Shown: positions 721-52,770 of the stretch, in pieces
How positions within the stretch are numbered: position 1 is the first letter of the stretch
How the letters are laid out: the number at the start of each line of letters is the position of its first letter
Assembly: GCA_039654915.1 (NCBI GenBank)
Contig: CM077597.1
Coordinates: 32,586,001 to 32,650,000, forward strand
Direction of reading: 5' to 3'
Length of the DNA stretch: 64,000 bases
DNA from: Aquilaria yunnanensis
Lineage: Eukaryota > Streptophyta > Magnoliopsida > Malvales > Thymelaeaceae
Program-made: the position numbers and the translations under genes
The notes under the pieces: generated by a model
Databases searched by the model: none
Told to the model about the DNA's origin: nothing
What the model saw: only the letters and a program-made list of their open reading frames with translations

Positions 721-722
721 TA

Positions 723-1891: not shown

Positions 1892-2021
1892 TATTAGAAA
1901 AGATACAAGCTTTTCCTTGTCACCTTCGGCCAGTTTTTCCCCACTCGGGTACTTCGACCTAGGACAAGTTCTACATCTTCTGTTTCTATTTTTTCAAGGT
2001 CTCATTTTCTTCCTCCCTTGC

Positions 2022-2474: not shown

Positions 2475-2486
2475 TCTCTTGATGTC

Positions 2487-4135: not shown

Positions 4136-4283
4136 TGTGACTGCTACAGGACGTTCATCCTCAGGCAAAGAAATTCCTGCGGTAGGCTACTTAGTTGCCG
4201 ATTGAGTTTTCGGTGCGGACGAGGACCTCGGGAGTCCCTTGTCTTTAGAACGCCGAGTCTTAACAGCGGTAACCTAGGAGTGA

Positions 4284-4304
4284 GTTCCCATAGATGGTGC
4301 CAAA
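4284..4304 (-). other. Primer binding site of element A
   Basis: On the minus strand, TTTGGCACCATCTATGGGAAC directly follows the LTR end GGGCATCA. The corresponding site in element C reads TTTGGCGCCGTTTGGGGGAA. The position directly after the CA-3' end of the LTR supports the call; I did not assign the tRNA. Confidence 0.7.
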
Positions 4305-4399
4305 TGATGCCCACTGGCATCCTCGTTGCGTGACACAGTGGCTTGGAGTAGGGACTTTTGGCGTGAGGACGCCTGAATGAGAGACTCCCAATGGGAGGG
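4305..4399 (-). repeat. 3'-most 95 bp of the 5' LTR of element A
   Basis: This matches the end of the C LTRs (GAGGATGCC...GGGCATCA). It is separated from the rest of the LTR (21512 onward) by element B; the bases GAGGG at 4395-4399 are the left target-site duplication of B. Confidence 0.8.
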
Positions 4400-6980
4400 T
4401 GTTGACACCCAATTTCGTCCGACCATAAAAAATTTTAAAAGAAATTAAATAAAAAAAATTATTATTATTATTATTATTATTATTACTAAAAATTTTAATT
4501 AGTTTAAAATACATTTTTTTTTTGTGAAGATTTGATTTAAAATGATATATGTGTGTATTTGAAAGAAAAAAAGAAAACTCCAAAAAAATGGCAAAATTTA
4601 AAAGTTTGAGGTAAAAATGACAACATTAAGAAGTTTCGGGAAAAATTGACAAATTCTAAAAGTTCTAGGAGCATTTGGTAGTTTGTCACATAAAATTTTG
4701 GGTCTGCCGACGTTCTGGCGCAAATTGACAGAAAACGACAAAATTGTCAAAATCAGAAGCTTCAGGAACTTATCCAGAGGCTGAGAAACGTAAAGGACTA
4801 AAATTGTCATTTTACCAATTTTAAAGATAAGTTTGAAATTTTTTATTAATTTATCCATCAACAGTTCAGCCAAACTTCCTCTATAAATAGCCCCCCAAAT
4901 TTTGTACTGAACACACAAAAAAATAGACAGAAAGCTTAGAGCTCCGTTTTAGAAAAAATAAAAATTACAGACTTAGTCCCTGGCCCTCTTTCCTTTTCCC
5001 AGAAATTCCCAAAAGTTTCTATTCTGACGTATAGACTATCTTCTTCGTCCGTTTTTTTTCTGTTTCTTCCTTCTCCTTCGCTGCCCGTCGCTCCACGCCG
5101 TCCCGCCGCCGCTCATCGCTCCCCCACGCTACCGTCGCGCCGTCCCCACCTGCCCCTGGCCGCGCTGCCGCCCCGCCGCCAGCTGCCTCTCCTTCCCCCC
5201 CTGCGCGCGCGTCTGTTTCTCATGTTCCCAGCAAAATTCAAAATTAAAACTAAAGGGTACAACCCTTGTTTTGTCCTCTATTTTTTTTATTTCTTTCACT
5301 TTGGTCACTAACCTTTTATTTTGTTCTTGCAGAATTAATTCCTAACTATTTTAATTTTTACTTGTTTTACTTATTTGTTATTATTACTAACCCTTTTTTT
5401 TTTGTTATTAACTTACTAACAACTAACTTTTAATATTATTATTGTTACTAACCTTTTAATTTTTTGCATTATTACTAACTTTTATAATTGTTGTTAACAA
5501 TTAATTAACTTTTTATTATTGTTGTTAATTAATTAATTTAATTAACTTGGCTAACTTTTTATTATTGTTGTTAATTAATTTAATTAACTTGTCTAACTTT
5601 TTATTATTTTTGTTAATTAATTAATTAACTTGGCTAACTTTTATTGTTGTTAATTAATTAATTTAATTAACTTGGCTAACTTTTATTGTTGTTAATTAAT
5701 TAATTTAATTAACTTGACTAACTTTTTATTATTGTTGTTAATTAATTAATTTAATTAACTTGACTAACTTTTTATTATTGTTGTTAATTAATTAATTTAA
5801 TTAACTTGACTAACTTTTTATTATTGTTGTTAATCAATTAATTTAATTAACTTGACTAACTTTTTATTATTGTTGTTAATCAATTAATTTAATTAAACTT
5901 GGCTAATTTTTATTATTGTTGTTAATTAATTTAATTAACTTTGCTAACCTTTATTATTATTTATTTTTAAAGTGGATGGCCAAAAAGCCCCACTTTATTA
6001 TTATTAATTTTCCTTTATATAATTTTTTTTTAATTTAATTCACCTTTACCCTTACTTAAATAAATAAATGAAAATTAAAAGAAGATTATTTTTTTAAGCC
6101 TAATAAAAGTAATTTTTTAAAAAGCCAATTATTTTTATTTTTCTTTTATAAATTGAATAATTATTTAAATAATAAATAACTTTCACTAAAAAAAAAAACT
6201 AAAAGAAAGATAAGAAAAAGATAAGAAAGATAAGAAAAAGATAAAAAAAAGAAAAGAAAGAAAGAAAAGAAAGAAAAGAAAAAGAAAAGATAAAAAAAGA
6301 AAAGAAAGAAAAGAAAGGAAAGATTAAATCAAAAAGAAAAGAAAAATATAAGAAAGAAAAGAGAGAAAAGAAAAGAAAGAAAATAAAAAATAAAATTTTT
6401 TTATCTAAAAATTCTATAACAAAAAGAATTACGAATTACTAATTAAACTAATAATAAATTCCATAAAAATAATAATTATATAACTAACAATTAATTAAAG
6501 TAATTTCCATATCCGGATGATCCAGCAGGATCTACGGTTTGGAAAATATCAAACTTTCAAAATAAATAAATTAAATAAAAAGATAAAAATCCATATTTTT
6601 ACGATATGGATTAAAATTTTCACCAAATTCCGTGTCCAAATGACTCGGCAGAGTCCATGGTTCGGAATAAAAATCTTCCGTGTCCAAATGACTCGGCAGA
6701 GTCCATGGTTCGGAAGTATAAAATTCTATACAAATTAACTTAAAAATCCACATTTCGACTAATTCAGTTAAAATCTCTAAATTAACTGAAAATTATTTAA
6801 AAGCAAAGTAAAAAAAAAAAAATTAAAATCAACTAAGGTGCCAATTTTGGGCGCTATAACAATATTGTTTTAGCGTAACCGTACTCCCGATCCCCGAACT
6901 CTCGCAGACCAATTTTAAGGTGACCAATCGACCTAGGTAAACGGATTGGTGGCGACTCCCGAAAATCCGACGTTGCCACA
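4400..6980 (+). repeat. 5' LTR of element B
   Basis: 2,581 bp, TG...CA termini. It holds a (TTA)n microsatellite near 4460, a TATA box near 4881, a GC-rich pyrimidine-biased block at 5085-5215, an AT-rich run of roughly 50-60 bp repeats (GTTGTTAATTAATTAATT type) at 5490-5950 and a purine-only-like A/G tract at 6200-6390. A duplicated 37-bp segment (CCGTGTCCAAATGACTCGGC core) lies at 6640-6716. The small ORFs over it have no recognisable product. Confidence 0.95.
4881..4890 (+). promoter_or_regulatory. LTR promoter TATA box, element B
   Basis: CTATAAATAG lies about 480 bp into the LTR, followed by a C-run and the start of the probable R region. The same box recurs in the 3' LTR at about 19411-19420. 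Confidence 0.6.
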
Positions 6981-6983
6981 GCT

Positions 6984-7002
6984 TGGCGACTCCACTGGGG
7001 AC
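6984..7002 (+). other. Primer binding site, element B
   Basis: TGGCGACTCCACTGGGGAC lies 3 bp after the LTR end and starts with the TGG complementary to a tRNA CCA tail. This kind of PBS is known from Ogre/Tat elements, where an arginine tRNA primer has been proposed; the tRNA assignment is from memory of the family. Confidence 0.75.
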
Positions 7003-8040
7003 TCCACGTTAGTGAGTCGAGCCTAAAGTTGATTTGTTTTGATTTACTTTGCTTATTATGTGGATTTATATGTTATATTTACTTATTCTAAACATGCATA
7101 ATGCATTCACAATATGAAGCTCTATACCCGAGCTTTCTCAAATCGAACACAATTCTTTCTAAGCGGAATTGGTGTTGTTGTCCTTGTGAGGCCATGGTCT
7201 CCAAGCCTTCACCGGTTTCAAAGTAGCAAAGTAGTGTATTGCCTCCTGAGACGGTTAGTCTCTGTATGGGCCCACGAAAAGCTACGACTCGAATTAATCC
7301 ATTCCTTACATTAACCCTAGAGGGTAAGGAATCGGGCCGTCACTATGATTTAGTGACGGGATTCGGGAACTATCCCTTGCCTTTTTGATAAACCACCTTA
7401 TGCATATAGAACTCCCCACTTAACCATAGAACTAACCATAGAATTTCTACCATTTTACCAACGCCATAAGTATATCCTTGTTATGCTGTGTTGTTACTCT
7501 ACACTTTTCTTCATATGGTTTTAACTTGTTTATCCATAATACTTCATGAGTTGTTAATTACTATTTAACTTGTTAATAACCTTATTTTTCTTTTGTTATA
7601 CTTCCGTTCTGTGCAATTATTCTTCATGCATCAAAACCACGCATCAAATTATGCTAACTTTTTGGTCTTTATAATGATAACTAGAAGTCTTGAAGTTTCA
7701 CAATAGTGGATAAGCAAACTCACTCATCGCATGCATGCATTACATTAATCACGTGCATACAAAGTCTGATAAAAACATAATCTCATTTTGTATTGTATGC
7801 ATCCATTACATCAATCACGTGCATACAAAGTCTGATAAAACATAATCTCATTTTGTATTGCACGCATCCATTACATTAAATACATGCATACAAAGTCTGA
7901 TAAAAACATAATCTCATTTTGTATTACATACATCCATCACATCAATCAATTGCATATAAAGTCTAATAAAATAAATATTCCTTTAAAAAGGTAAAATTGG
8001 ACCTCAACACCGATATTCAACTCGGCTCCAAACAAGACTA
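7003..8040 (+). other. Untranslated leader of element B
   Basis: About 1 kb between PBS and gag with no convincing coding sequence; the 66-codon frame at 7114-7314 has no recognisable product. It ends in a short tandem array (7733-7970). Long leaders are usual in Ogre-type elements. Confidence 0.6.
7733..7970 (+). repeat. Tandem repeat of about 66-67 bp, 3-4 copies
   Basis: The unit contains CACGTGCATACAAAGTCTGA followed by CATAATCTCATTTTGTATT. The last copy is partial and more diverged. It lies directly upstream of gag. Confidence 0.85.
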
Positions 8041-9792
8041 ATGGCAGAACAAACTGAAGGACGTCTCATAGATATAGAGTCCAAGATTGAAAGTATGGCA
8101 GAACAAATGAGACAATTGATGGAAATAATCAAAGGGAAAGCAACTCAAGTTCCCATCAAAGAAGCACAAGATCCCACTTATACTCCGGGATTCACCCCAC
8201 AACGAGTCTCAGTCCAAGAAAACCTGTTTCAGGAACCAGGACAGTCTGCTAGTGTTCACTTGAAACAAGACACTGTGTATGAAGAGAAGAAGACACCACC
8301 AAAGGAAGAAGGAGAATCTCAAAAACTCGAAACAATAGAGAAGAGACTGCGAGCCATTGAAGGAGGTAATATATTCGGATCTCTCTCAGTGGATGACCTC
8401 TGCTTAGTGCCAGACGTCATAATCCCTTCGGACTTTAAAGTACCGGATTTCGTAAAATACGATGGAACGAGTGATCCCATCACTCACATCACACTGTTCC
8501 TAAGGAGACTACAACCACTCACAAAAGATGAAAAGGTGTGGATTGCACTTTTTCAGGAAAGTCTCACAAAATCAGCATTGCAGTGGTATCTAAGTCAAGG
8601 ACCAAGAAACATCAAAACTTGGAATGACCTTGCTCAGGCCTTCATCGGCAACTATAAACATGTTATGGACTTGGCTCCGGATCGCCAAACTCTCCAAAAC
8701 ATGGAGAAGAAAAAGCCAGAAACTTTCAAGGAATATGCCCAACGGTGGAGGGACTTAGCTGCACAAGTTCAGCCACCCATGACAGAAAAAGAAATGGTCA
8801 CTTTGTTTGTCCAGACACTGAAATACCCATATTATGACAAACTCATTGGCAATTCGGCAACTAATTTCTCCGATGTTGTCATGTCCGGAGAAAGGATCGA
8901 GCATGGGATTAGGACTGGGAAGATTGCTGAGTCCTTTAGTGATCCTATGAAAAGAGGAGGACCATCCAGAACAAAAGACGAAGAAGTACAACAAATAGGA
9001 CACGAAAGAGGGATTCCCCTCGTAGGTACTGTGGCTACCGGTCCTCGCCTATCCTATTCTGCCAAAAGGCCCAATTATTATCCTACCAATAGGCCCAATG
9101 ACTATCCTCCCAATATGCCCAATAATTATCCTTCCAATAGGCCTAATGATTATCCTCCCAATAGGCCCAACAATTATCCTCTCAACAGGCCTAATCAGTT
9201 ACGGCCACCTATTCCGACTCCTCCAGTACCCACACAAAAACCAAAAGAAGTTTTTGCACCAATTCCCATGACTTACACTGAGTTGTATCCAAAACTCATA
9301 GAAAGTCAACTTATCCGTCCAATTCCTACAAATCCATTTGGACCCCCATATCCAACGTGGTATGACCCCAACATAACTTGCCCATATCATGATGGCGTTC
9401 CAGGCCATGGCTTGGAAAATTGCACAGCATTGAAACGTATAGTCCAACAATTAATCGAATCAAAGTGGTTGGACTTTTCCGATGAACCGAACGTCACTCA
9501 CAATCCATTGCCGCCTCGTCAAGAAAAACCAGTCAATATGATAGAAGAACACCGGCTGATGAAAAAGTCAGTCAATGATATCATAACCCCTCTTAAGCAT
9601 GTATATTCATGCCTTGTGAAAGAAGGGATTATCATGGGAAAGCCTTCTTTTGGACATGAAGAAGTTGAAGATGAGGAATGGTGCAACTTTCATGACAGTA
9701 AGAGTCATTCTATCCAAGAATGCTCAGAATTCCGTAAGAATCTGCAAAGACTCATAGACTCATCCCAACTTATCGTTTTTATGATGATGTGA
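8041..9792 (+). CDS. gag: Gag polyprotein of element B (intact)
   Basis: 583 residues, starting MAEQTEGRL. The first 110 residues are polar and helical, probably coiled coil (IESKIESMAEQMRQLMEII). The retrotransposon gag core spans about residues 130-310 (VPDFVKYDGTSDPITHI, ALQWYLSQG, TFKEYAQRWRDLAAQV). Residues about 340-390 form a low-complexity array of RPNxYPxN repeats. Two degenerate Cys/His segments follow (CPYHDGVPGHGLENCTALK at about 452 and WCNFHDSKSHSIQECSEF at about 550), the arrangement seen in Ogre/Tat gag. It would package the element RNA in cytoplasmic particles. It is the only retroviral-type gene left in B. The C-terminus looks frameshifted into a remnant at 9780-9930. Confidence 0.93.
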   Translation: MAEQTEGRLIDIESKIESMAEQMRQLMEIIKGKATQVPIKEAQDPTYTPGFTPQRVSVQENLFQEPGQSASVHLKQDTVYEEKKTPPKEEGESQKLETIEKRLRAIEGGNIFGSLSVDDLCLVPDVIIPSDFKVPDFVKYDGTSDPITHITLFLRRLQPLTKDEKVWIALFQESLTKSALQWYLSQGPRNIKTWNDLAQAFIGNYKHVMDLAPDRQTLQNMEKKKPETFKEYAQRWRDLAAQVQPPMTEKEMVTLFVQTLKYPYYDKLIGNSATNFSDVVMSGERIEHGIRTGKIAESFSDPMKRGGPSRTKDEEVQQIGHERGIPLVGTVATGPRLSYSAKRPNYYPTNRPNDYPPNMPNNYPSNRPNDYPPNRPNNYPLNRPNQLRPPIPTPPVPTQKPKEVFAPIPMTYTELYPKLIESQLIRPIPTNPFGPPYPTWYDPNITCPYHDGVPGHGLENCTALKRIVQQLIESKWLDFSDEPNVTHNPLPPRQEKPVNMIEEHRLMKKSVNDIITPLKHVYSCLVKEGIIMGKPSFGHEEVEDEEWCNFHDSKSHSIQECSEFRKNLQRLIDSSQLIVFMMM

Positions 9793-9933
9793 ATGTGATC
9801 ATTAAAGAACAAGAAGTCAATGCTATACCAATCTCAAAACCTACTCTTAAGCCGTCAAGTCCCAAGGCCATTCCTCTACAAATCAAACAAAACCGAGGTC
9901 AAGCTGCTAGGCCCGATGTGATTGGTAATTGAA
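9780..9933 (+). pseudogene. Remnant of the gag-protease junction; start of the pol deletion
   Basis: One frame over from the gag stop, the translation continues with YDDVNVIIKEQEVNAI and a Pro/Lys-rich linker, then ends. Such a linker normally leads to protease. No D-T/S-G motif, RT or integrase motif follows anywhere up to the 3' LTR, so pol has been removed downstream of this point. Confidence 0.6.
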
Positions 9934-10650
9934 AGTGAAGATTTTGAGCTGGAATTACATTGATTTTGGAAGGGCTCCAAGTCAGATCTGACCTAACAGT
10001 CCGCATACATTTTCGAATGACAGGGAATCCTTTGAATAAACTTGTATCTTTGAAAGCTTGCAAAAGTAATCTAATAGTAAAAATCTCCTAGATTTAGTCC
10101 AGAATCTAGGGTGTAGTCTTTGTTAGATGGACACCTGGTATTCTTTCTGGTACAACAAAAAGATGTAATGCGTGCATTCTACTACTTTCCATTTTTACAC
10201 TCTTTGCCATTATACTATCTATTATTGCCATCACACTTTACTTTTTGACAACTGGTAATTCTTTTTGTTCTCTAACAAAAAGATGTTACGTGTACATTAT
10301 ACCACTTTTTAATTCCATTATTAAATCTACATATTATACCAATTTTTACCAAAAATTCAATTATTACACCTACACATTCTATCACTTCTTACCAAAAATT
10401 CTGTTTTTACATCCATCTCTCACTCCTTTCCATTATACTATCCATTATTGCTATCATACTTTGCTTTCTAAATGATACTACTCGTGGGTGAAAATAAAAA
10501 GTTGAGAAAAATTTGATAGTAATGATCTTGAAAGTGCTGCCAAATCTAGTAAGAAGGATTTCATATGTTGCACCTCAACCCTCAAAAAGAATTCACAGTG
10601 GTTATCAACATCCTTACAAGGAGTCCGGGATTAACTTCCAAAGAAGTTAG
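9934..10650 (+). repeat. Non-coding region with two diverged copies of a roughly 130-bp segment
   Basis: The segment around 10128-10240 (GACACCTGGTATTC, ACAAAAAGATGTAATGCGTGCATT) reappears diverged at 10237-10370 (GACAACTGGTAATTC, ACAAAAAGATGTTACGTGTACATT). Short pyrimidine-rich runs follow. I see no coding potential; the 76-residue frame at 10245-10475 is low complexity. Confidence 0.5.
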
Positions 10651-10679
10651 CTCTCATATTAAATGACTTCAGTGGCCTC

Positions 10680-11200
10680 CCAATTCTCACAAATGCTCAA
10701 TACAAAAAAAAATTCTCAGTTTTCCATAACACAAATTCCAACAAAGGAAAGAAGTTCCTCCCTTCCATCAAAAGCCATTAAAGAGAAAATCCAAACAAGA
10801 AAAAAAATCCAAAAAAAAAGAGAGACTGAGAAGCAAATAAAGCCACTTGAGTCATCTCACTTCAAGAAGGCTATGATCTCGGTTCTCCATAACACAAACT
10901 CCAAAAAAAAAAAAAGGGAAAAAGTTCATCCCTTCCATCAAAAAGCCAACAAGGGAAAATTCAAAACCAAAAAAAGAGAGACTGAGAGCAAACACAAGCA
11001 AGTAAGGCCACTTGAATCATCTCATTTCAAGAAGGCTATGATCTCGGTTCTCTGTAACAAAAACTCCGAAAATGAAAAAGTTCATCCCTTCCACCAAAAA
11101 GCCAACAAGGGAAAATTCAAAACCTAAAAGAACTGAGAACAAGCACGAGCAAGCAAGGCCACTTGAGTCATCTCACTTCAAGAGAGTTATCAAGTATGTT
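10680..11200 (+). repeat. A-rich tandem repeat of about 165-175 bp, about three copies
   Basis: The repeated landmarks are CACTTGAGTCATCTCACTTC, GGCTATGATCTCGGTTCTC and AAGTTCATCCCTTCCA, separated by oligo-A runs of varying length. The lysine-rich frames (154 and 79 residues) are translations of the repeat, not genes. Confidence 0.75.
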
Positions 11201-11464
11201 ATCACCATAGCTCACACAAACAAAAAAAACAAAAAAAAAAAAAAAGAGGAAAAAGGGCTCAAACTAGAAAAAAAAAAAAAGAAAACAAAAAAAGTGAGCT
11301 ATGGATTCTAGACTGAAAACCTGCAAAGGCGGTTTAGAACACAAAAGCAATTTTCAAGCCAAGCATACATAAAGACCACGATAGTTGGGGGGCAACAGAT
11401 GAGATCAAACTTTCTGGAAAAGGTGGCAAGTTTGAAGTCATCATTATTGAGTTTTTCACCATAA

Positions 11465-11871
11465 TCAAATCTGCTCACGAGTAGTATTAAAAGACCCTTC
11501 TTTCACACCATTAAAACTTAACTTCCTTCAGACTTAATATCCTCATTCAGCTAAAAGACTATCATTGTGAATTATGTTTCTACCTTATTTAATACTGCTC
11601 ACGAGCAGTGTTAAAAGACTCTTCTTTCACGCCACTCAAGCTTAACTTTCCTCAGACCTAAAATTTACCTCTTGATATTATCCTCATTCAGCTAAAAGAC
11701 TATCATTGTGAATTATGTTTCTACCTTATTTAATACTGCTCACGAGCAGTGTTAAAAGACTCTTTTTTCAAGCCACTCAAGCTTAACTTTCCTCAGACCT
11801 AAAATTTACCTCTTGATATCATCCTCATTCAGCTAAAAAACTATCATTGTGAATCATGTTTCTACCTTATT
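11465..11871 (+). repeat. Tandem repeat of about 125-141 bp carrying a short perfect palindrome
   Basis: Three copies. Copies two and three carry ACTGCTCACGAGCAGT (11594-11609 and 11735-11750), a 7-bp stem with a 2-nt loop; the first copy (about 11471) is imperfect. Each is followed by GTTAAAAGACTCTT and later by TCATTCAGCTAAAAGACTAT. Confidence 0.8.
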
Positions 11872-12750
11872 GCCTTGCATAATTTATGTCTTCGAGTTGG
11901 AAAGGGAAGAATGGCAGGATATTTTAATTAAAAACAAAGACCGTAAATTACTTTGTCAAGTTTTACAAATTGATGAAAGTTTTTCTTTAAGGCCAAACCA
12001 TTATTCATTAATGTATGTAGACTTAAAAGTGAGGAGATAGCTTGAGTCTTTCTTTAAGAAGATGTGGTTCTTGTAAGAGAAATTCATGATCAAGGACCAT
12101 CACAAAGGCCTAGAAATGCTCAACCTTCTGTTAAATCAAAGATGAGATGATAACTTTTATCCACATAAACACCAAATTCAGGGGGGCAAAGTAGTTTCTA
12201 CGAAGCATAAGAGGAGTACTGCCAACAAAGAAGTTCAATAGATAAGGGGGCAAGTCTTATGGATCAAAACATGAGTTCAAGGAAGAGCAATCATTCAGAT
12301 TATAACATGGGAATAAGTAAGTGTCGGCACGGTCACAAGAAAAGGGGCAAAGCAGACATTGAAAGTAAAGCCTTTGATGGTATCAAATCCATGACAATGG
12401 ATGAGTACCCGAAAGAGATATAAATTATGAGGCGGGCCAACTTTAAAGAAATTGAGGCCAAAATTCAAAGAACAAGTCAAAGAAAGAGGATTTTGAAAAG
12501 AGTTGGGCTTTTGAGGCAGCGAACAAAAGCTGGAAAACATAAAGAGATTCAATGATAGTCCAAGAAGGCCATCACAAAGAGGATCCAGTAAAACAAAGAC
12601 ATAAAGAACTAGATCCATACAAAAAAAGCCATTAGTTACACATGCTCTGCATTCATGCATTTCATATCATGCATACATAGCCTTTACATAACAAGGACCA
12701 AACGGGAATCACATTCACAGCACAGTTACAGCAGTATAAGCTGAGATCTC
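11872..12750 (+). other. Unique non-coding stretch of element B
   Basis: I see no gene. It contains G-runs resembling polypurine tracts (around 12180 and 12246), as does about 11384 just upstream. The minus-strand frame at 12295-12660 and the plus-strand frame at 11849-12040 show no recognisable motif. Confidence 0.4.
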
Positions 12751-12799
12751 AATGTCATCAGCTCTTACCAATCTATCACTGGATACACAGCTAATATGC

Positions 12800-13165
12800 G
12801 GGACCAACCCGCATCAGGAATTCAAGGATAAAGTAGACAATGTTGTCAAAAGCTTGGCTACCGATTCAATAATCGAGGCTACACCTGGAAGGATAGGATT
12901 GACGCCAGCTAGTAGTATCCAAGATAAGAGATAGCTATAGCCAAGGATAAGGCAGTTATCAAAAAAAAATATATAAAATAGACAATATTGTCAAAAGCCT
13001 GGCAATTGATTCAATAATCGAGGCTACACCTGGAAGGATAGGATTGATGCCAGCTTAGCAGCATCCAAGATAAGAGATAGTCAAAGATAAGGCAGACATC
13101 AAGAAATATTGTCGTTGAAAATTTGTCAAAAGCGGACAATGGATTCAATAATCGAGGACTGGATC
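12800..13165 (+). repeat. Tandem repeat of about 150-190 bp, 2-3 copies, upstream of the cargo genes
   Basis: The landmark GATTCAATAATCGAGG occurs at about 12863, 13009 and 13142. In the first two copies it is followed by CTACACCTGGAAGGATAGGATTG, and in the third by a shortened version. GTCAAAAGC precedes each copy. Confidence 0.7.
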
Positions 13166-13180
13166 GACGTCAGCTCGATG

Positions 13181-13192
13181 GAATATAAAAAA
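13181..13192 (+). promoter_or_regulatory. Possible TATA element upstream of CRP-like copy 1
   Basis: GAATATAAAAAA lies about 150 bp before the first ATG. It is weaker than the boxes before copies 2, 3 and LOG, and the block homologous to the copy-2 upstream region begins only after it (about 13215). Confidence 0.3.
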
Positions 13193-13335
13193 TATCTATC
13201 ACATCAAAATGAAGTAGGATCCACTTTGCCGGTTAAACGGCAGATACGGTACTCCGTGACTCTCAAGTCGGTTCTCTCAGTTGCCCATAATAACTGGTTT
13301 CTTCACCCCTTCTTTCTTTTACTTCCTCCTAGAAA

Positions 13336-13884
13336 ATGGATCCTACTTTTTCCGCCTTGCGAAAGTATTTCCCTTCTCTCCCAATGAACATTCTCAAAAA
13401 GATCTACCAAGTTCGCTGTGAACGATTAAGAGTTCTGATGCACAAAGGAATCCCTGAAGATGTGCGGTGGTTAATCGAAGCCAAGGTTCGTCTGGCAGGT
13501 GAAATCCCAGAGGCATTTGTGTCTCACATGCCTGGTATAGGCAAAAGCTCTTATGCCAAAAAGCGAAGAGCGAAAAGGTTACAAGTCTGCCATAAATGTG
13601 GACGGTGGACTTGTAATACTAAATGTCGTTCTTTAGGGATGATCTCTGATAATCGAGAAGATAAAATACGATTCATTAAGAATGGCCTGAGTAAGGACTC
13701 GTTGGATGATATCCAATTGACTCTTGAGACGCATTCTTGTGGATCCGTGCAACATGAACTTCTTGGTTTATGGAGCATTTTTCATGAAGAACGAAACCGT
13801 TACAGTCTCGGGAATCTGACTGTAAATGACCCTGTTTGCCAGCTTGTAAGAAAACTGGATGGGAAGCAAATCCTCGACTCATAG
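13336..13884 (+). CDS. Cysteine-rich basic protein, virus NABP-like, copy 1
   Basis: 182 residues, intact. The N-terminal half is mostly helical and basic. Residues 72-82 hold a basic run (SYAKKRRAKRL) followed at once by C85-x2-C88-x4-C93-x3-C97, a compact zinc-binding pattern. Hydrophobic/charged segments and a C-terminal NDPVCQLVRKLDG follow. A basic patch directly before a short Cys cluster, followed by an isoleucine/phenylalanine-rich stretch (RFIKNGL), is the layout of the 3'-terminal cysteine-rich nucleic-acid-binding proteins of carlaviruses and relatives (Viral_NABP type), which bind RNA and can act on silencing or transcription. That assignment is inference. It could instead be an unrelated zinc-binding plant protein. 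The start follows a leader block shared with copy 2. Confidence 0.7.
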   Translation: MDPTFSALRKYFPSLPMNILKKIYQVRCERLRVLMHKGIPEDVRWLIEAKVRLAGEIPEAFVSHMPGIGKSSYAKKRRAKRLQVCHKCGRWTCNTKCRSLGMISDNREDKIRFIKNGLSKDSLDDIQLTLETHSCGSVQHELLGLWSIFHEERNRYSLGNLTVNDPVCQLVRKLDGKQILDS

Positions 13885-14040
13885 AAGCCATTAATGCCGT
13901 TACTAGATGTAAAGCCAGTGGAAGATGTGAGTCACAGTCACAATTACTGTACATACAGTTTGTTATATTTGGAAAAGTTTACATTTTCTTTTGACAGATG
14001 TACATGCTCCCCTAAGTGTAATTAACACGTTATCCTTTCA

Positions 14041-14052
14041 TCGCTATAAATG
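14041..14052 (+). promoter_or_regulatory. TATA box of CRP-like copy 2
   Basis: TCGCTATAAATG lies about 125 bp before the ATG at 14172. Upstream are GTGTAATTAACACGTTATCC and a TTACTGTACATAC motif, both repeated before copy 3. Confidence 0.6.
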
Positions 14053-14171
14053 CGTGTTCTTCTTTCCGGTTAAGTAGCGGATGCAATACTCTCTGACTCT
14101 CATAATCGGTTATTTCAGTTTCCTACAATAACTGATTTCTTCATCTCTTCTCTCAAATTCTTCTTTTATCA

Positions 14172-14720
14172 ATGGATTCTACTCTTTCCGCCATGCGAAA
14201 ATACTTTCCTTCCATCCCAATAAATGTTCTTAAAATGATTTACCAAGCTAGATGTGAAAGGATTAGAGTCTTTATGCACAAAGGCATTCCTGACAATGTG
14301 CGGTGGCTAATTGAAGCTAAGGTTCGTTCAGCTGGTGAAGTTCCAGAAGCGTTCTTTCCCCGTATGCCCGGCTTTGGTAAAAGTGCTTATGCCAAAAAGC
14401 GAAGAGCAAAGAGGCTAGGTGTCTGTCATAAATGTGGACGATGGAATTGTAATACTAAATGTCGCTTTTTAGGATACATCTCCAGAAATCATGAAGATAA
14501 AAGAAAATTCATCAAGAATGGCCTGCGTAAGGAATCTTTGGATGATATCCTATTAACTTTTGAAACACATTCTTGTGAAATAGTGCAATGGGAAATTATG
14601 GATTTATGGTGGACTTTCCGTAAAGAACAGGATCGTTACAGTCTTGGAAATCTAACTTTTAATGACCCTGTTTGCCAGTTTGTGAAAAAACTGGATGGGA
14701 AGCAAATCCCCGACTTATAG
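14172..14720 (+). CDS. Cysteine-rich basic protein, virus NABP-like, copy 2
   Basis: 182 residues, the same length as copy 1 and alignable end to end. The basic run YAKKRRAKRL and the C-x2-C-x4-C-x3-C cluster (CHKCGRWNCNTKC) are kept, as are RKFIKNGLRKESLDDI and the C-terminal NDPVCQFVKKLDG. The start is 836 bp after the start of copy 1, so gene plus promoter were duplicated as a unit. That both copies kept full-length frames while diverging in sequence suggests some constraint. Subcellular site and partners are unknown; the lysine/arginine run could also serve as a nuclear signal. Confidence 0.72.
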   Translation: MDSTLSAMRKYFPSIPINVLKMIYQARCERIRVFMHKGIPDNVRWLIEAKVRSAGEVPEAFFPRMPGFGKSAYAKKRRAKRLGVCHKCGRWNCNTKCRFLGYISRNHEDKRKFIKNGLRKESLDDILLTFETHSCEIVQWEIMDLWWTFRKEQDRYSLGNLTFNDPVCQFVKKLDGKQIPDL

Positions 14721-14868
14721 AAGGCATTGAAGCCGTTACTAGACATAAACTAGTGGAAGATGGGAGCCACAGTCATGATTGCTGTACATATAAGCTGTCA
14801 TTTGTCTTTTCTTTTGACAATAATGTACTTGCTTTTGTAAGTGTAATTAACACATTATCCCTTTCATC

Positions 14869-14880
14869 ACTATAAATATG
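14869..14880 (+). promoter_or_regulatory. TATA box of CRP-like copy 3
   Basis: ACTATAAATATG lies about 65 bp before the ATG at 14937. The preceding GTGTAATTAACACATTATCC matches the block before copy 2. Confidence 0.6.
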
Positions 14881-14936
14881 TGTTAGTTATTTTCGTTTCC
14901 TACAATCACTAATTTCTTTCTTTGCCTCCTTTATCA

Positions 14937-15485
14937 ATGGAGTCTTCTCTTTCCGCCCTACGAAAGTATTTTCCTTCCTTCCCAATAAATGTTCTTAAAA
15001 AGATTTATCAAGCTAGATGTGAACGATTCAGAGTATTTATGCACAAAGGCATTCCTGATAATGTGCGGTGGCTAATTGAAGCTAAGGTTCGTTCAGCTGG
15101 TGAAGTTCCAGAAGCGTTATTTCCCCGTATGCCCGATTTTGGTAAAAGCGCTTATGCCAAAAAAAAGAAGAGCAAAGAGGCTGGGCGTTTGTCATAATTG
15201 TGGATGGTGGATTTGTGGCAATAAATGTCGTTCTCCAGGAGTGATCACCAGAAATCGTAATGATAGAATAAGATTCATTAAGAATGGCTTGCGTAAGGAA
15301 TCTCTAGAAGATATTCGAGAGGTTCTTGAAGCGCATTCTTGCGGAATAATGTAATTTGAGGTTGTTGGATTATGGATAATTTTCCAAAAAGAACGAGATC
15401 GTTACAGTCTTGGGAATCTGACCCTAAACGACCCTGTTTGCCAGTTTGTGAGAAAGCTAGATGAGATGCAAATCACCGATTCATA
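14937..15485 (+). pseudogene. Cysteine-rich basic protein, virus NABP-like, copy 3 (broken)
   Basis: The start MESSLSALRKYFPSFP matches copies 1 and 2, and the spacing is 765 bp from copy 2. An A-run at about 15160 carries one extra A relative to copy 2, shifting the frame inside the basic segment. Read across the shift, the Cys cluster is present but altered (CHNCGWWICGNKC). A stop at about 15352 replaces a Gln codon in copy 2. Homology continues to about 15485 (RYSLGNLTLNDPVC). Slippage plus nonsense has therefore silenced this copy. Confidence 0.75.
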
Positions 15486-15519
15486 GAAAGCATTAAAGCC
15501 ATTACTGGACGCAAAGCCA

Positions 15520-15900
15520 GTGGAAGACGAGGATCAAAGTCACGATTACTGTACGTGCTAGCTGTCGCTTTTGAAATTTTCCTCCCCTTTTGGTAATAAT
15601 GTATTCACTCCTGACGTGAACCAAAGTCACGATTACTGTACATGCTAGCTGTCGCTTTTGAAATTATCCTCCCAATAATGTACCCACTCCTGACATGAGA
15701 TACAGTTATGATTACTGTATATAGCTGCCACTTTTTAAAATTTTCCTTCTCTTCCAACAATCACGTACCTACTCCTGACGTAAGCTACAGTAGTGACTAC
15801 TGTACATGCTAGCAGCTATTTTGAAAATTTTCCTCCTCTGTTAACGATAGTGTACCCATACCTGACCAGAGTCATATTCGTGACTACTGTGAATAGCTGG
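15520..15900 (+). promoter_or_regulatory. Repeated upstream module before LOG with TGACG motifs
   Basis: Five or so diverged copies of a roughly 75-95 bp module: a GATTACTGTACATGCTAGC-type segment, then TTTTGAAATTTTCCTC, then AATGTACCCACTCCTGACGTGA. The single-copy form of the first part occurs downstream of CRP copies 1 and 2 (about 13930 and 14770), before the next TATA box. TGACGTGA (15612) and TGACGTAA (15776) resemble the TGACG core of as-1-like elements bound by TGA bZIP factors; the other copies are degenerate (TGACATGA at 15691, TGACCAGA at 15863). Regulatory function is inference. Confidence 0.5.
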
Positions 15901-15949
15901 CAATAATGTATCCATTCTTGAAAATAAAATTATTGCCTTCTCTCTTCAT

Positions 15950-15962
15950 CTCTATAAATATA
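15950..15962 (+). promoter_or_regulatory. TATA box of the LOG gene
   Basis: CTCTATAAATATA lies about 40 bp before the ATG at 15993, so the leader would be very short. Its position downstream of the ATG at 15906 argues against that upstream start. Confidence 0.6.
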
Positions 15963-15992
15963 TCCTCTTTTCTCACAAGCGTAAGGATAGGA

Positions 15993-16592
15993 ATGGAGAA
16001 AACCCCAACTCATAAATCCCGAAGTATTTGTGTATTTTCTGGGGCTTTTCCTGGAAAAGATGAAGAGTATTTAAAAGCAGCCAACCATTTGGGTAGAGTA
16101 TTAGCTGAGCGAAAAATACATTTAGTTTATGGAGGAGGTAGTGTCGGATTAATGGGAGGTGTAGCATCAGCAGCATCTTTAGGAGGAAGTCAAGTTTTGG
16201 GTATTATCCCTGGACCTCTGAAATTTATTTCTGGGGGCACGATTGGAGAAGAATTAGTGGTTAAAAATTTGCAAGAGCGTGTGTTACAAATGCTTTTAAA
16301 TGCTGATGCTTTTATCACTCTACCAGGTGGTTTTGGCACATTGGGAGAAGTCTTTCAAATTGCTTCCATGGCCCAACTTAATTTGCATAAGAAACCCATT
16401 GGGCTTTTGAATGTTAACAATTTCTTTACAGGTCTGATAGCTTTTATGGATTATGCTATGCAGAAAAATTTCATATCAAGAGTGGCACGGCGAATTATAA
16501 TATCCGCAACAACTGCTGAAGAATTGCTAGATAAAATACAAGCTTTTGTTCCTGAACCAGATCCAGCAATGATTCAGATAGACTGGACATGA
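15993..16592 (+). CDS. LOG: LOG-type cytokinin riboside 5'-monophosphate phosphoribohydrolase, intronless
   Basis: 199 residues from the chosen ATG; the frame is open from 15906 but that ATG lies upstream of the TATA box. The Rossmann-like LOG fold is clear: ICVFSGAFPGKDEEY at 12-26, LVYGGGSVGLMGG at 44-56, VLGIIPGPL at 68-76, and the family signature PGGFGTLGE at 111-119 (pattern PGGxGTxxE, catalytic Glu119). Arg96 is at the position of the active-site Arg, but the usual His/Lys neighbours are changed (NLQERVLQM). PIGLLNV and a C-terminal helix follow. The family releases free, active cytokinin from its nucleotide in the cytosol and nucleus. Plant LOG genes normally have several introns; this one has none, as expected of a copy that passed through RNA. 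It lies inside a retrotransposon, same strand, behind the promoter repeats of the CRP-like genes. Enzymatic activity is untested. Confidence 0.9.
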   Translation: MEKTPTHKSRSICVFSGAFPGKDEEYLKAANHLGRVLAERKIHLVYGGGSVGLMGGVASAASLGGSQVLGIIPGPLKFISGGTIGEELVVKNLQERVLQMLLNADAFITLPGGFGTLGEVFQIASMAQLNLHKKPIGLLNVNNFFTGLIAFMDYAMQKNFISRVARRIIISATTAEELLDKIQAFVPEPDPAMIQIDWT

Positions 16593-17164
16593 CAGTCTTT
16601 CCCGACCAGTTCACTCCCATAATGGTCCTCTACTCACCCTGTTGAAGTATTGTGGAAGAAAGAAGCGATCTGATCCGTTTTTCTTGTCCTTTAGTTTTAT
16701 TATCAGCATTTTCTTTCGTGTTTCAGTTTTTCCTTTCAGGGAATTTCTTTTTTTTATAATATAGTTTCGTCCATGCTGATATTAAAACCATAGGACAATG
16801 CCTTTAGGTTGGAATGGCTGAGTAAAAAGTAATTTCTGTTACTCTTGAGACGCATCCTATTAGGTCTACTAGGCATAACATTTTGGGGTAGTTAAGCTTT
16901 AACCTTATTCGGATGACATATCTCACAAGGGAATCTATATTTACTGAAGAAAATATTAGATGAACCTTGAATATTGATTCCAAACATCCGTTCCCTTTAC
17001 ATAATTTGTCAGTGTTATTTTCATCATCAAGATTCACTCGTTTTATCGAAGCCTAATTCTTTGCGCTCGCCTATTATGAAAATTCACACTTTCGAAGAAA
17101 ATTATTCCAATTTCAATTGCTTTCATATAAATTTCGCTCGAGGTCCTAAGAAAAGCTCCTTAGC
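16593..17164 (+). other. 3' flank of LOG, non-coding
   Basis: T-rich, with TTTTTTTATAATATAG near 16750 that could serve polyadenylation. No repeat of the upstream modules and no convincing gene; the small frames on both strands show no motif. Confidence 0.5.
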
Positions 17165-17800
17165 CTCAAAATCAGTTTTCATCATCGGGGTTTTAAGGAT
17201 GGAACCTTTGCCTAGAAAATAATCAATTTTCATCATCGGGGTTTTAAGGATGGAACCTTTGCCTCGAAAACAATCAATTTTCATCATCGGGGTTTTAAGG
17301 ATGGAACCTTTGCCTCGAAAAGAATCAATTTTCATCATCGGGGTTTTAAGGATGGAACCTTTGCCTCGAAAATAATCAATTTTCATCATCGGGGTTTTAA
17401 GGATGGAACATTTGCCTCGAAAACAATCAATTTTCATCATCAGGGTTTTAAGGATGGAACCTTTGCCTCGAAAATAATCAATTTTCATCATCGGGGTTTT
17501 AAGGATGGAACCTTTGCCTCGAAAACAATCAATTTTCATCATCGGGGTTTTAAGGATGGAAACTTTGCCTCGAAAATAATCAATTTTCATCATCGGGGTT
17601 TTAAGGATGGAACCTTTGCCTCGAAAACAATCAATTTTCATCATCAGGGTTTTAAGGATGGAACCTTTGCCTCGAAAACAATCAATTTTCATCATCGGGG
17701 TTTTAAGGATGGAACCTTTGCCTCGAAAAGAATCAATTTTCATCGCCGGGGTTTTAAGGATGGAACCTTTGCCTTGAAAACAATCAATTTTCATCAATCC
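17165..17800 (+). repeat. Satellite-like array, 51-bp unit, about 12 copies
   Basis: The unit contains TCATCATCGGGGTTTTAAGG, then ATGGAACCTTTGCCTCGAAA and a CAATCAATTT spacer. Starts are regularly 51 bp apart from about 17191 to 17752. Because 51 is a multiple of three, the minus strand reads open for 224 codons as a 17-residue repeat; that is an artefact. Tandem arrays in the 3' untranslated region of Tat/Ogre elements are known and can seed satellites. Confidence 0.95.
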
Positions 17801-18775
17801 GAGGTTTTAAGGATGGAACCTTTGCCTTGAGATCAATCAATCAATCCGAGGTTTTAAGGATAGAACCTTTGCCTCGAGATCAATCAATCAATCCGAGGTT
17901 TTAAGGATGGAACCTTTGCCTCGAAATCAATCAATCAATCCGAGGTTTTAAGGATGGAACCTTTGCCTCGAGATCAATCAATTCGAGGTTTTAAGGATGG
18001 AACCTTTACCTCGACATCAATCAATCAATCCGAGGTTTTAAGGATGGAACCTTTGTCTCGACATCAATCAATCAATTCGAGGCTTTAAGGATGGAACCTT
18101 TACCTCGACATCAATCAATCAATCCGAGGTTTTAAGGATGGAACCTTTGCCTCGAAATCAACCAATCAATCTGAGGTTTTAAGGATGAAACCTTTACCTC
18201 GAAATCAATCAATTAATCCGAGGTTTTAAGGATGGAACCTTTGCCTCGAGATCAATCAATCAATCCGAGGTTTTAAGGATGGAACCTTTGCCTCGAGATC
18301 AATCAATCAATCCGAGGTTTTAAGGATGAAACCTTTGCCTCGAGATCAATCAATCAATTCGAGGTTTTAAGGATGGAACCTTTACCTCGACATCAATCAA
18401 TCAATCCGAGGTTTTAAGGATGGAACCTTTGCCTCGAAATCAATCAATTAAACCGAGGTTTTAAGGATGGAACCTTTGCCTCGAGATCAATCAATCAATT
18501 CGAGGTTTTAAGGATGGAACCTTTACCTCGAAATCAACCAATCAATCTAAGGTTTTAAGGATGGAACCTTTGCCTCGAAATCAATCAATCAATCTGAGGT
18601 TTTAAGGATGAAATCTTTGCCTCGAGATCAATCAATCAATTCAAGGTTTTAAGGATGGAACCTTTGCCTCGAAATCAATCAATCAATTCGAGGTTTTAAG
18701 GATGGAACCTTTGCTTCGAAATCAATCAATCAATCCGAGGTTTTAAGGATGGAACCTTTGCCTCAGAAACAATCA
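17801..18775 (+). repeat. Satellite-like array, variant 47-bp unit, about 20 copies
   Basis: This keeps the core GAGGTTTTAAGGATGGAACC and TTTGCCTCGA, but the TTTTCATCATC part is replaced by ATCAATCAATCAATC, shortening the unit to about 47 bp with occasional 41-50 bp variants. It follows the 51-bp array directly, so one array evolved from the other. A final fragment with CCTATCGCCGGGGTTCTAAGG runs to about 18835. Confidence 0.93.
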
Positions 18776-18928
18776 ATTTTCCTTCAACGATAGGAGAGCT
18801 CCTATCGCCGGGGTTCTAAGGAGAGTTCCTTAACCTCACGATTTAGGCGGCGAAAAGGTTTTCAATGCCTAGCTAAGCCGGACGAAATTTGGTAACGACT
18901 TTGCATACATCATGTCTCATGAAGCATG

Positions 18929-18942
18929 CAAAGGGGGGCAGC
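18929..18942 (+). other. Polypurine tract of element B
   Basis: CAAAGGGGGGCAGC lies directly before the 3' LTR TGTTGACACCC; the purine run AAAGGGGGG is the expected plus-strand primer site. Confidence 0.8.
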
Positions 18943-21511
18943 TGTTGACACCCAATTTCGTCCGACCATAAAAAATTTTAAAAGAAATTAAATAAAAAAA
19001 ATTATTATTATTATTACTAAAAATTTTAATTAGTTTAAAATACATTTTTTTTTGTGAAGATTTGATTTAAAATGATATATGTGTGTATTTGAAAGAAAAA
19101 AAGAAAACTCCAAAAAAATGGCAAAATTTAAAAGTTTGAGGTAAAAATGACAACATTAAGAAGTTTCGGGAAAAATTGACAAATTCTAAAAGTTCTAGGA
19201 GCATTTGGTAGTTTGTCACATAAAATTTTGGGTCTGCCGACGTTCTGGCGCAAATTGACAGAAAACGACAAAATTGTCAAAATCAGAAGCTTCAGGAACT
19301 TATCCAGAGGCTGAGAGACGTAAAGGACTAAAATTGTCATTTTACCAATTTTAAAGATAAGTTTGAAATTTTTTATTAATTTATCCATCAACAGTTCAGC
19401 CAAACTTCCTCTATAAATAGCCCCCCAAATTTTGTACTAAACACACAAAAAAATAGACAGAAAGCTTAGAGCTCCGTTTTAGAAAAAATAAAAATTACAG
19501 ACTTAGTCCCTGGCCCTCTTTCCTTTTCCCAGAAATTCCCAAAAGTTTCTATTCTGACGTATAGACTATCTTCTTCGTCCGTTTTTTTTCTGTTTCTTCC
19601 TTCTCCTTCGCTGCCCGTCGCTCCACGCCGTCCCGCCGCCGCTCATCGCTCCCCCACGCTACCGTCGCGCCGTCCCCACCTGCCCCTGGCCGCGCTGCCG
19701 CCCCGCCGCCAGCTGCCTCTCCTTCCCCCCCTGCGCGCGCGTCTGTTTCTCACGTTCCCAGCAAAATTCAAAATTAAAACTAAAGGGTACAACCCTTGTT
19801 TTGTCCTCTATTTTTTTTATTTCTTTCACTTTGGTCACTAACCTTTTATTTTGTTCTTGCAGAATTAATTCCTAACTATTTTAATTTTTACTTGTTTTAC
19901 TTATTTGTTATTATTACTAACCCTTTTTTTTTTGTTATTAACTTACTAACAACTAACTTTTAATATTATTATTGTTACTAACCTTTTAATTTTTTGCATT
20001 ATTACTAACTTTTATAATTGTTGTTAACAATTAATTAACTTTTTATTATTGTTGTTAATTAATTAATTTAATTAACTTGGCTAACTTTTTATTATTGTTG
20101 TTAATTAATTTAATTAACTTGTCTAACTTTTTATTATTTTTGTTAATTAATTAATTAACTTGGCTAACTTTTATTGTTGTTAATTAATTAATTTAATTAA
20201 CTTGGCTAACTTTTATTGTTGTTAATTAATTAATTTAATTAACTTGACTAACTTTTTATTATTGTTGTTAATTAATTAATTTAATTAACTTGACTAACTT
20301 TTTATTATTGTTGTTAATTAATTAATTTAATTAACTTGACTAACTTTTTATTATTGTTGTTAATCAATTAATTTAATTAACTTGACTAACTTTTTATTAT
20401 TGTTGTTAATCAATTAATTTAATTAAACTTGGCTAATTTTTATTATTGTTGTTAATTAATTTAATTAACTTTGCTAACCTTTATTATTATTTATTTTTAA
20501 AGTGGATGGCCAAAAAGCCCCACTTTATTATTATTAATTTTCCTTTATATAATTTTTTTTTAATTTAATTCACCTTTACCCTTACTTAAATAAATAAATG
20601 AAAATTAAAAGAAGATTATTTTTTTAAGCCTAATAAAAGTAATTTTTTAAAAAGCCAATTATTTTTATTTTTCTTTTATAAATTGAATAATTATTTAAAT
20701 AATAAATAACTTTCACTAAAAAAAAAAACTAAAAGAAAGATAAGAAAAAGATAAGAAAGATAAGAAAAAGATAAAAAAAAGAAAAGAAAGAAAGAAAAGA
20801 AAGAAAAGAAAAAGAAAAGATAAAAAAAAGAAAAGAAAGAAAAGAAAGGAAAGATTAAATCAAAAAGAAAAGAAAAATATAAGAAAGAAAAGAGAGAAAA
20901 GAAAAGAAAGAAAATAAAAAATAAAATTTTTTTATCTAAAAATTCTATAACAAAAAGAATTACGAATTACTAATTAAACTAATAATAAATTCCATAAAAA
21001 TAATAATTATATAACTAACAATTAATTAAAGTAATTTCCATATCCGGATGATCCAGCAGGATCTACGGTTTGGAAAATATCAAACTTTCAAAATAAATAA
21101 ATTAAATAAAAAGATAAAAATCCATATTTTTACGATATGGATTAAAATTTTCACCAAATTCCGTGTCCAAATGACTCGGCAGAGTCCATGGTTCGGAATA
21201 AAAATCTTCCGTGTCCAAATGACTCGGCAGAGTCCATGGTTCGGAAGTATAAAATTCTATACAAATTAACTTAAAAATCCACATTTCGACTAATTCAGTT
21301 AAAATCTCTAAATTAACTGAAAATTATTTAAAAGCAAAGTAAAAAAAAAAAAATTAAAATCAACTAAGGTGCCAATTTTGGGCGCTATAACAATATTGTT
21401 TTAGCGTAACCGTACTCCCGATCCCCGAACTCTCGCAGACCAATTTTAAGGTGACCAATCGACCTAGGTAAACGGATTGGTGGCGACTCCCGAAAATCCG
21501 ACGTTGCCACA
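18943..21511 (+). repeat. 3' LTR of element B
   Basis: 2,569 bp. It is nearly identical to the 5' LTR: a shorter TTA microsatellite (about 12 bp), one extra A in an A-run near 20822, and about three substitutions that I noticed (near 19316, 19439 and 19753). It is followed by the duplication GAGGG at 21512-21516. Confidence 0.95.
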
Positions 21512-22330
21512 GAGGGTGGCTGCAAGACTCAGAAAAAAGAGGGTCAGAGACTCCCTGGAATGTGTTTCTGGGGGAGGAGCCTCTGATGCCCAAGTCAGTA
21601 AGAGAGAACAAGTAAGGAGCAAAAGTGGAGAGTTGAGAGTTGGGAAAGTCTCTTGTGTCCTCTTACTAAGGTCTTCCTAAGTATTTATAGGAGGGCATAA
21701 GAAGGAGGCCGTTTGACATAGCCTACTGAGATTACGACACTTGTTCGGCCGAATTTGGTCCGTACCTCTGCAGACAAGTACCTCCAGCTGGGCCTAGGCC
21801 ATCCTAGCCAGGGGTGCCAGCGAGGTTACTATGACAGGGGTGTCTGTGGCAGAGGTGTTTGTGTCAGAGGCTCCTTAACTGTTTTTGTCGTATTTTCTCA
21901 AGACCCCTTCGGTGTGCCAGGATCCCTCGGAATAAGAGGTCCCCTTCAGGCCGACATCATTACTGAGGGCTGTTAGGAGAGGCCCCTCGGCAAAGTGGAG
22001 CACCTTCGGTGATCGCTCTCAATTTCCAAGGATGGGGATATGCTTTCCCGAACTAGGTGGGTTCACCATTCGAAGGTGGTAGTATGCTCCCTTTCCAAGG
22101 TCGGCAACATTATTTACTGATGATGGTGGCTGGCCACCGAGGTTGTGCCTGGCTCACCGAGGGTTGATTTTGGCAAGATGATCCGGAGATCTCAGGGACC
22201 CCGGTCCTTTGGTCATAGGGCGTTGTTTTTTTCCGAGGATGGTAAGGGTCCCCTATTTCCCGAGGTCACTCATATTCTTCGAGGGTGGTGCTTCTCGGGT
22301 CAATTCGGAAACTCTCTAAGCTTAAAAAAA
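21512..22330 (-). repeat. Remainder of the 5' LTR of element A
   Basis: On the minus strand this aligns with the C LTRs: CCTATAAATACTTAGG (about 21675-21690), GACTTGGGCATC and CACCACCCTCGAAG near the start. The outer limit is uncertain; homology fades near 22300-22350. GAGGG at 21512-21516 is the duplicated target of B. Confidence 0.75.
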
Positions 22331-24739: not shown

Positions 24740-25446
24740 ACCCTCAAGACCTCCTAATCTGCTATCTTGGCACTACCCTCCGAAAGGTCTTAGCCCCTAA
24801 CCTCGGATTCTCTGTACCACCCTCGGAAAGTAACATGACCAACTTCGGGAAAAATGTGTCCACACCACCTTCGGATTGGGAAACTACTAACCTTGGAAAA
24901 GTAGATCCACCGTCCTCAATAGAGGACATAGTCTCCCGAAGATGGTCTGCTATCTCGAAGGGTCTTCCCTAGTAGCCCTCAAGGATAAATCTCTGCCTGA
25001 AGGGGTCTCACATCCCCGAAGAGGTCTTACGGAGAAACGACAAAAACGGTTAAGGAGCCTCTGACAAAGAGACTTCGCACACACCCCTACCCTCTGGCCA
25101 GAATGGCCTACGGCAAGCTGGAGATACCTGCCTCCGAAGCTACGGACCAGATCTAATCAAACATGTGTCATGATCTGGATTGGCTGTGTAAAACGGCCTC
25201 CTCCCTCCACCCTTCTATAAATACTTAGGAGGGTCCTTGGTAAGAACAACGGGACTCTCTTTTTTATACTCTTGCTCTTAAACAACTCCTCTCCCGTTAA
25301 CTGACTTGGGCATCAAAGGCTCCCCGCCGAAAATACACTCCGGGGAGCTCCTAGCCCACGTTCTTTAAAGTCTTACAGATATCTTCTCATCGGAAGTCCT
25401 CCCTTTAGGCCAACATATCATACAGCGAGGATGCCGCTAGGCATTA
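24740..25446 (+). repeat. Rest of the C 5' LTR
   Basis: Aligns along its whole length with 33719-34425, including TATAAATACTTAGGAGGGTC (TATA box near 25216) and the end GAGGATGCC...GGCATTA. Confidence 0.9.
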
Positions 25447-25466
25447 TTTGGCGCCGTTTGGGGGAA
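25447..25466 (+). other. Primer binding site of element C
   Basis: TTTGGCGCCGTTTGGGGGAA follows the LTR directly and has the TGG complementary to a tRNA CCA end. TGGCGCCG is a frequent start of PBS sequences in plant gypsy elements. Confidence 0.7.
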
Positions 25467-25615
25467 CCCATTCCCAGCTTATTGTTGTTAAGACCTACCG
25501 TTCAAAGGACAAGGGACTCCTGAGGTCCTAGTCCGCGTCGGAAGCTCAAGCAGCAATTGAACAGCCTACAACGAAGACTTCCCTGCCTGGGGACGAACAT
25601 CCTCTGACAGTCACG

Positions 25616-26935: not shown

Positions 26936-27059
26936 CCCAAAGTTCAAGAAATGAGGGAAAAAGAAAGAAAATGGGAGGATGAGGACTATGATTTTGATCG
27001 ACGTCAGAACTGAAGTCCCAGAAAACACCCACCACCTTTGGCAGGAGTAATCCAAACAA

Positions 27060-27630: not shown

Positions 27631-27634
27631 CCCA

Positions 27635-28960: not shown

Positions 28961-28963
28961 CTG

Positions 28964-37787: not shown

Positions 37788-37792
37788 GAACC

Positions 37793-38813: not shown

Positions 38814-38814
38814 G

Positions 38815-52765: not shown

Positions 52766-52770
52766 GAACC

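Follow-up and report, generated by a model that had tools for sequence, protein, structure and literature searches.

The stretch of DNA analyzed here, 64,000 nucleotides of the Aquilaria yunnanensis genome (assembly GCA_039654915.1, contig CM077597.1, positions 32,586,001 to 32,650,000; hereafter the window), contains a long terminal repeat (LTR) retrotransposon of 17.1 kb, with both of its ends in the window (4400-21511), which carries genes for proteins similar to the CRPs of carlaviruses next to a gene for a LOG-like phosphoribohydrolase. We consider it likely that this element is a recently inserted, pol-less member of a high-copy Tat-type Ty3/Gypsy family that has retained gag, and whose relatives carry the same CRP-LOG block after pol.

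The element is delimited by a 5′ LTR of 2581 bases (4400-6980) and a 3′ LTR of 2569 bases (18943-21511), both on the forward strand, which are 99.34% identical over 2583 columns, with three mismatches and three gap openings. The LTRs have TG...CA ends (start TGTTGACACC, finish GTTGCCACA), and a comparison of the flanks revealed the target-site duplication GAGGG on the left (4395-4399) and on the right (21512-21516), which together identify an LTR retrotransposon. The original prediction, made from the letters alone, of perfect LTR termini with a GAGGG duplication was thus correct for the termini and the duplication, while the LTRs as a whole are 99.3% identical. The three mismatches date the insertion to approximately 0.04-0.08 million years ago at substitution rates of 0.7-1.3e-8. 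An open gag gene lies at 8041-9792 on the forward strand (Retrotrans_gag, 7.7e-12). A family-specific pol query found no pol in the element, in agreement with the pol-less organization that had been proposed, and approximately 3.5 kb of its interior contain no Pfam-matching frame among the frames tested. Downstream of gag and in the same sense are CRP1 (13336-13884; Viral_NABP 2e-07, Carla_C4 5.2e-06) and CRP2 (14172-14720; Viral_NABP 7.5e-06, Carla_C4 1.5e-05), each open over 182 amino acids, followed by the LOG-like gene (15906-16592; PF03641 2.6e-30; TIGR00730 148 bits, above the cut-off), a single open frame with a later ATG at 15993. A third CRP, at about 14937-15486 on the same strand, is recognizable as a DNA repeat of CRP1 and CRP2 and is broken into split frames in the window copy; two of the three open 182-residue CRP frames predicted originally are therefore open, and the predicted LOG frame and the orientation of CRP and LOG along the element were borne out. 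The window copy, with gag only and not gag and pol in one copy, is non-autonomous. With its LTRs and gag and no pol it is TR-GAG-like; TR-GAG elements are non-autonomous elements in which gag is kept and pol is missing, and the window copy differs from them by its extra CRP and LOG genes.

The position of the block within the family was given by its relatives. We inspected the regions upstream of 14 other LOG copies in the genome (4 stretches of 8 kb and 10 of 1.2 kb), and pol was found upstream of the CRP-LOG block in five of them (L057, L060, L062, L063 and L064), while the remaining nine have the window's non-coding stretch at pol's place. The proper place of the block is therefore 3′ of pol and ahead of the 3′ LTR, and the proposal that it occupies the place of pol was not upheld. 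The order in L060 is gag end, a weak protease match (below the cut-off), reverse transcriptase, RNase H, a second RNase H, integrase, one CRP and LOG, with RVT_1, RT_RNaseH and RVT_3 within one frame and rve in the next. L060 is the only pol-bearing copy in which the gag end is in view, and its integrase shares 98-99% identity with the integrases of L057, L062, L063 and L064; both L057 and L060 have interruptions in their pol frames. The window copy is a member of a pol-less subfamily that presumably borrows the pol products of its relatives, and these products would move it in trans; we regard this anatomy, together with mobilization of the window copy in trans, as very probable. For LTR retrotransposons in general, gag and pol are considered sufficient for transposition (PMC7264820). 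Angiosperm Tat elements are marked by a second RNase H domain placed between the first one and integrase (PMC6317226), and judged by this domain in L060 the family is Tat-type Ty3/Gypsy, an assignment that is made through a pol-bearing relative, the window copy itself having no pol. As described in PMC6317226, Tat elements (Ogre, Retand) share with the window family extra open reading frames (ORFs), tandem repeats and large LTRs in addition to the second RNase H seen in L060, but the extra domains listed for them are the plant mobile domain, Transposase_28 and Athila ORF-1, whereas those of the window family are CRP and LOG.

A search for further copies of the accessory genes had been suggested, and they were found in abundance in the genome (842 Mb in 345 contigs). 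A DNA query covering CRP1 and CRP2 matched 40 main places, the window's and 39 others, all with 94-100% identity (the best 40 of 3464 first-look candidates), and the window LOG matched 150 places including its own, all 98-100% identical and stop-free (the best 150 of 3650 candidates). With an Arabidopsis LOG as the query (the best 150 of 3519 candidates), 145 places were stop-free and five had one stop; all 150 matched at 46-49% over approximately 185-194 residues within a single frame and apparently represent the element's LOG, from which host LOG genes could not be separated. The two LOG lists, compared by eye, have two places in common, which gives at least 298 distinct places, 293 of them stop-free, and a gag query gave 94 places at 98-100% identity, 91 of them stop-free (the best 94 of 12697 candidates). 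All of these counts are lower bounds that favor intact copies because the best-scored candidates were taken. The copies are dispersed over many contigs. Among the 40 fetched CRP stretches, the window's included, a LOG region was present in 39, with no LOG match in the remaining one; three full CRP frames were found in 18, a full LOG in 23 and all four in 14. The number of CRPs varies, with a single frame ahead of LOG in L060, two regions in both L030 and L034, and three in most others, perhaps as a result of recombination between the tandem CRPs.

To assess selection, the comparison was restricted to copies that are as long as the window copy and free of gaps, inserts and stops (29 of 40 for CRP1, 30 of 40 for CRP2 and 28 of 39 for LOG); CRP3 was left out because its frame is broken in the window. 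The mean pairwise ratio of nonsynonymous to synonymous substitution (dN/dS) among these open copies was 0.215 for LOG, 0.280 for CRP1 and 0.316 for CRP2, values well below 1 that do not bear out neutrality and resemble those under purifying selection. The comparison of CRP1 with CRP2 gave a similar ratio (0.163/0.682 = 0.24). When sites varying in two or more haplotypes were counted by codon position, the open copies gave 30/8/53 for LOG (p = 6e-8) and 20/24/49 for CRP2 (p = 3e-4), while the spacer showed no codon-position bias over all copies (29/24/36, p = 0.29); the bias was retained when broken copies were included, with 35/11/54 for LOG (p = 9e-7) and 33/31/60 for CRP2 (p = 0.002). The p-values are indicative only, because sites that share a genealogy do not vary independently. 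On these grounds, the CRP-LOG block is probably an accessory module kept by selection, and it would be kept because it helps the element.

Several observations weigh against this interpretation. A full LOG frame is missing in 17 of the 40 stretches and three full CRPs are missing in 22, and L058, one of the nine inspected copies without pol upstream, is without gag as well, yet has kept its CRP frames and LOG. The codon-position counts of CRP1 are not significant alone, either among open copies (5/6/14, p = 0.054) or with broken copies included (12/7/17, p = 0.12), so that CRP1 by itself is weak evidence, and the CRP2 set combines divergent types (84-100% identity, mean dS 0.20). Finally, the signs of selection may stem from just a few functional source copies.

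The pairing of CRP with LOG recurs among gene models from other plants. A Citrus gene model containing both was used as a query and returned 412 proteins, and both domain types were present in 10 of the 120 listed, eight from Citrus (the query among them) and two from Orobanche gracilis; the Citrus model P0274 joins integrase, CRP-like and LOG-like parts. Even if such gene models are wrongly fused, they show CRP and LOG as neighbors. In addition, three CRP/LOG protein pairs come from equally sized contigs (8723, 4511 and 2128), an indication, though no proof, of linkage.

The LOG-like protein belongs to the Lysine_decarbox/TIGR00730 fold family, and the nearest solved structure is that of Arabidopsis At2g37210 (1e-50, 45% identity). 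R98 and E121, which we take to be the catalytic Arg and Glu, are invariant across 24 aligned rows including At2g37210. The protein missed the cut-off of the NCBIfam equivalog CtkRMPhLog (98.3 bits versus 300), a cut-off that was applied without calibration on a plant LOG. Its 120 listed relatives include 32 from Reevesia pubescens, and others from Diplodiscus, Populus, Paulownia, Rehmannia, Parasponia and Xanthoceras. In a midpoint-rooted tree of 31 rows (28 chosen listed proteins, the window LOG and two Arabidopsis rows), 27 rows including the window LOG were separate from the two Arabidopsis LOGs and two Xanthoceras proteins (support 99/98), with a largely unresolved branching order within the 27-row group. 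The poplar protein named LOGL10 (P0185) falls inside this group, and is therefore probably a transposon gene. Six proteins that carry plant LOG names are similar to the LOG of the element, P0185 and P0220 from Populus and P0262, P0271, P0275 and P0285 from Citrus, of which only P0185 is in the tree; all six may be transposon genes.

A C-terminal LxLxL tail, which we take to be the EAR repression motif, is found in 99 of the 120 listed LOG relatives, with a basic pair directly ahead of it in 93, compared to 1 of 120 CRP proteins used as a control; the tailed relatives are not all known to be element-borne. The tail suggests a possible nuclear role for the wider LOG family. It is absent from all 29 LOG tails tabulated among the stretches fetched from this genome, and therefore cannot explain the window copy.

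Both CRP1 and CRP2 score above the curated Pfam cut-offs of Viral_NABP and Carla_C4, and in an alignment of 47 CRP proteins (45 of the 120 listed relatives and the two window frames) Viral_NABP was matched by 44 and Carla_C4 by 40 (E <= 0.001). A basic stretch resembling a nuclear localization signal was recognized by pattern in 112 of the 120 listed relatives, and a cysteine cluster in 107. The homology search returned 154 proteins, and the five with an organism name among the 120 listed are all from plants (Populus, Xanthoceras, Acer, Rhamnella and Citrus); the Rhamnella gene model has, as judged from its sequence, an integrase-end-like stretch ahead of the CRP. In viral_contigs, none of 10 pattern matches was confirmed as a viral relative with CRP2, and none of 27 with the CRP alignment. 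The structure model of the CRP is weak (mean pLDDT 61). The element CRPs thus share with carlavirus-type CRPs the Viral_NABP and Carla_C4 matches, the basic stretch and the cysteine cluster, but unlike them lie inside a retrotransposon and in tandem copies.

Part of this arrangement has precedents. YgdH/LOG domains in Gypsy elements have been described from two Citrus species and, with a looser filter, from P. trichocarpa (PMC9289625, citing Steinbauerova 2011). Like the window family, these elements have a LOG-type domain inside, with consensuses built around reverse transcriptase, but the account, in the part consulted, mentions neither a CRP partner nor a pol-less form nor a LOG tail (PMC9289625). 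The same source describes orchid Gypsy elements with an AlkB m6A demethylase, which are similar in that a large Gypsy element carries an extra enzyme gene, there active in vitro, but the enzyme differs from the window's LOG and no CRP is mentioned in the part consulted (PMC9289625). The main text of a review of extra ORFs lacks all six terms for LOG or CRP that were looked for (PMC7264820), and that of a Retand survey contains none of the terms lonely guy, lysine decarboxylase, carlavirus, cytokinin and zinc finger (PMC11963269). No report of a CRP partner of LOG in retrotransposons was found in the open-access literature searched. The earlier statement that no described element was known to combine these cargos therefore needs to be divided: the LOG domain in Gypsy elements is already known (PMC9289625), while the CRP companion was not found in the literature searched.

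An alternative to an accessory module kept by selection is that the block is useless to the element, having been captured long ago or repeatedly and carried along by a few young and successful source copies. Most of the listed LOG copies share 98-100% identity, which recent bursts would produce, many copies are broken, and the LxLxL tail of most relatives is missing in the window family, all of which would fit such passenger cargo; the dN/dS of 0.22-0.32 and the presence of the same CRP-LOG pair in Citrus and Orobanche gene models argue against it, and we consider it unlikely. We attach a similarly low probability to the possibility that the block serves the element in another way, with the CRP working as a chaperone for nucleic acids or as part of the particle and the LOG having nucleotide pools, not cytokinin, as its target. 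The CRPs match viral nucleic-acid-binding families, and a viral CRP has been reported to associate with virions (PMC11213338), whereas the LOG remains close to plant LOGs and keeps the two positions taken above to be catalytic, which would count against this alternative. That CRP and LOG are host genes merely lying near retrotransposons, or amplified with them by segmental duplication, is very improbable even though plant LOG annotations are attached to some relatives, since the block is enclosed by matching LTRs with a target duplication and is repeated at scattered positions on many contigs. Finally, an assembly join or chimera is effectively excluded by the CRP region at 39 other places, the LOG after it in most fetched stretches and the CRP-LOG pairs in other plants, and a chance arrangement is excluded by the same 39 places and the LOG region in 39 of the 40 stretches.

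If CRP and LOG form a selected accessory module, a mechanism can be proposed by analogy, although only tentatively. LOG enzymes release active cytokinin, and the element's LOG would do the same. The CRP, a basic zinc-finger protein like the carlavirus CRPs, could blunt RNA silencing or switch on proliferation genes, and together the two proteins would make the cell more permissive or cause it to divide more; the roles in silencing suppression, cytokinin activation and proliferation are inferred. The original suggestions of CRPs that counter silencing and of cytokinin that favors meristematic cells are hypothetical in the same way. In support of the analogy, viral CRPs suppress RNA silencing, and p12 of chrysanthemum virus B is a transcription factor causing hyperplasia (PMC12172455).

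Other features of the element include a primer-binding-site-like stretch (6983-7002, forward strand), inferred from its position just 3′ of the 5′ LTR, a 47/51-bp minisatellite in the interval between LOG and the 3′ LTR (17189-18777), and a polypurine tract 5′ of the 3′ LTR (18930-18938, forward strand). An Rfam scan of 4000-22000 gave no match. The DNA to the left of the element (1-4399) is repeated in inverted orientation at 25423-29432 (75-77%) and contains an RVT_3 match at 133-717 on the reverse strand, and the element (4400-21511) seems to sit in older retroelement DNA. Elsewhere in the window, 37786-52766 consists of three near-identical tandem units of approximately 4651 bp each, with an approximately 1-kb repeat at both ends. 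Each unit has a 793-amino-acid ORF (at 40191, 44842 and 49493). The three ORFs differ by 0-1 bases over 2382 bases, and the two that were scanned both match Retrotrans_gag; the region resembles an array of gag-only retroelements with shared LTRs.

The combination of a hormone-activating enzyme with a viral-type regulator, low dN/dS and at least hundreds of stop-free LOG copies in one genome would make host manipulation by plant transposons directly testable, and some annotated plant LOGs, such as poplar LOGL10, are suggested to be transposon genes. In the broadest form of this idea, which is possible but for now speculative, a Tat-type lineage widespread in flowering plants would carry a conserved module of CRP and LOG, usually with an EAR-like tail, that reprograms host cells in the element's favor through proliferation and silencing suppression. 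Such a module would be a plant counterpart of retroviral accessory or oncogene functions, kept by selection even in pol-less subfamilies.

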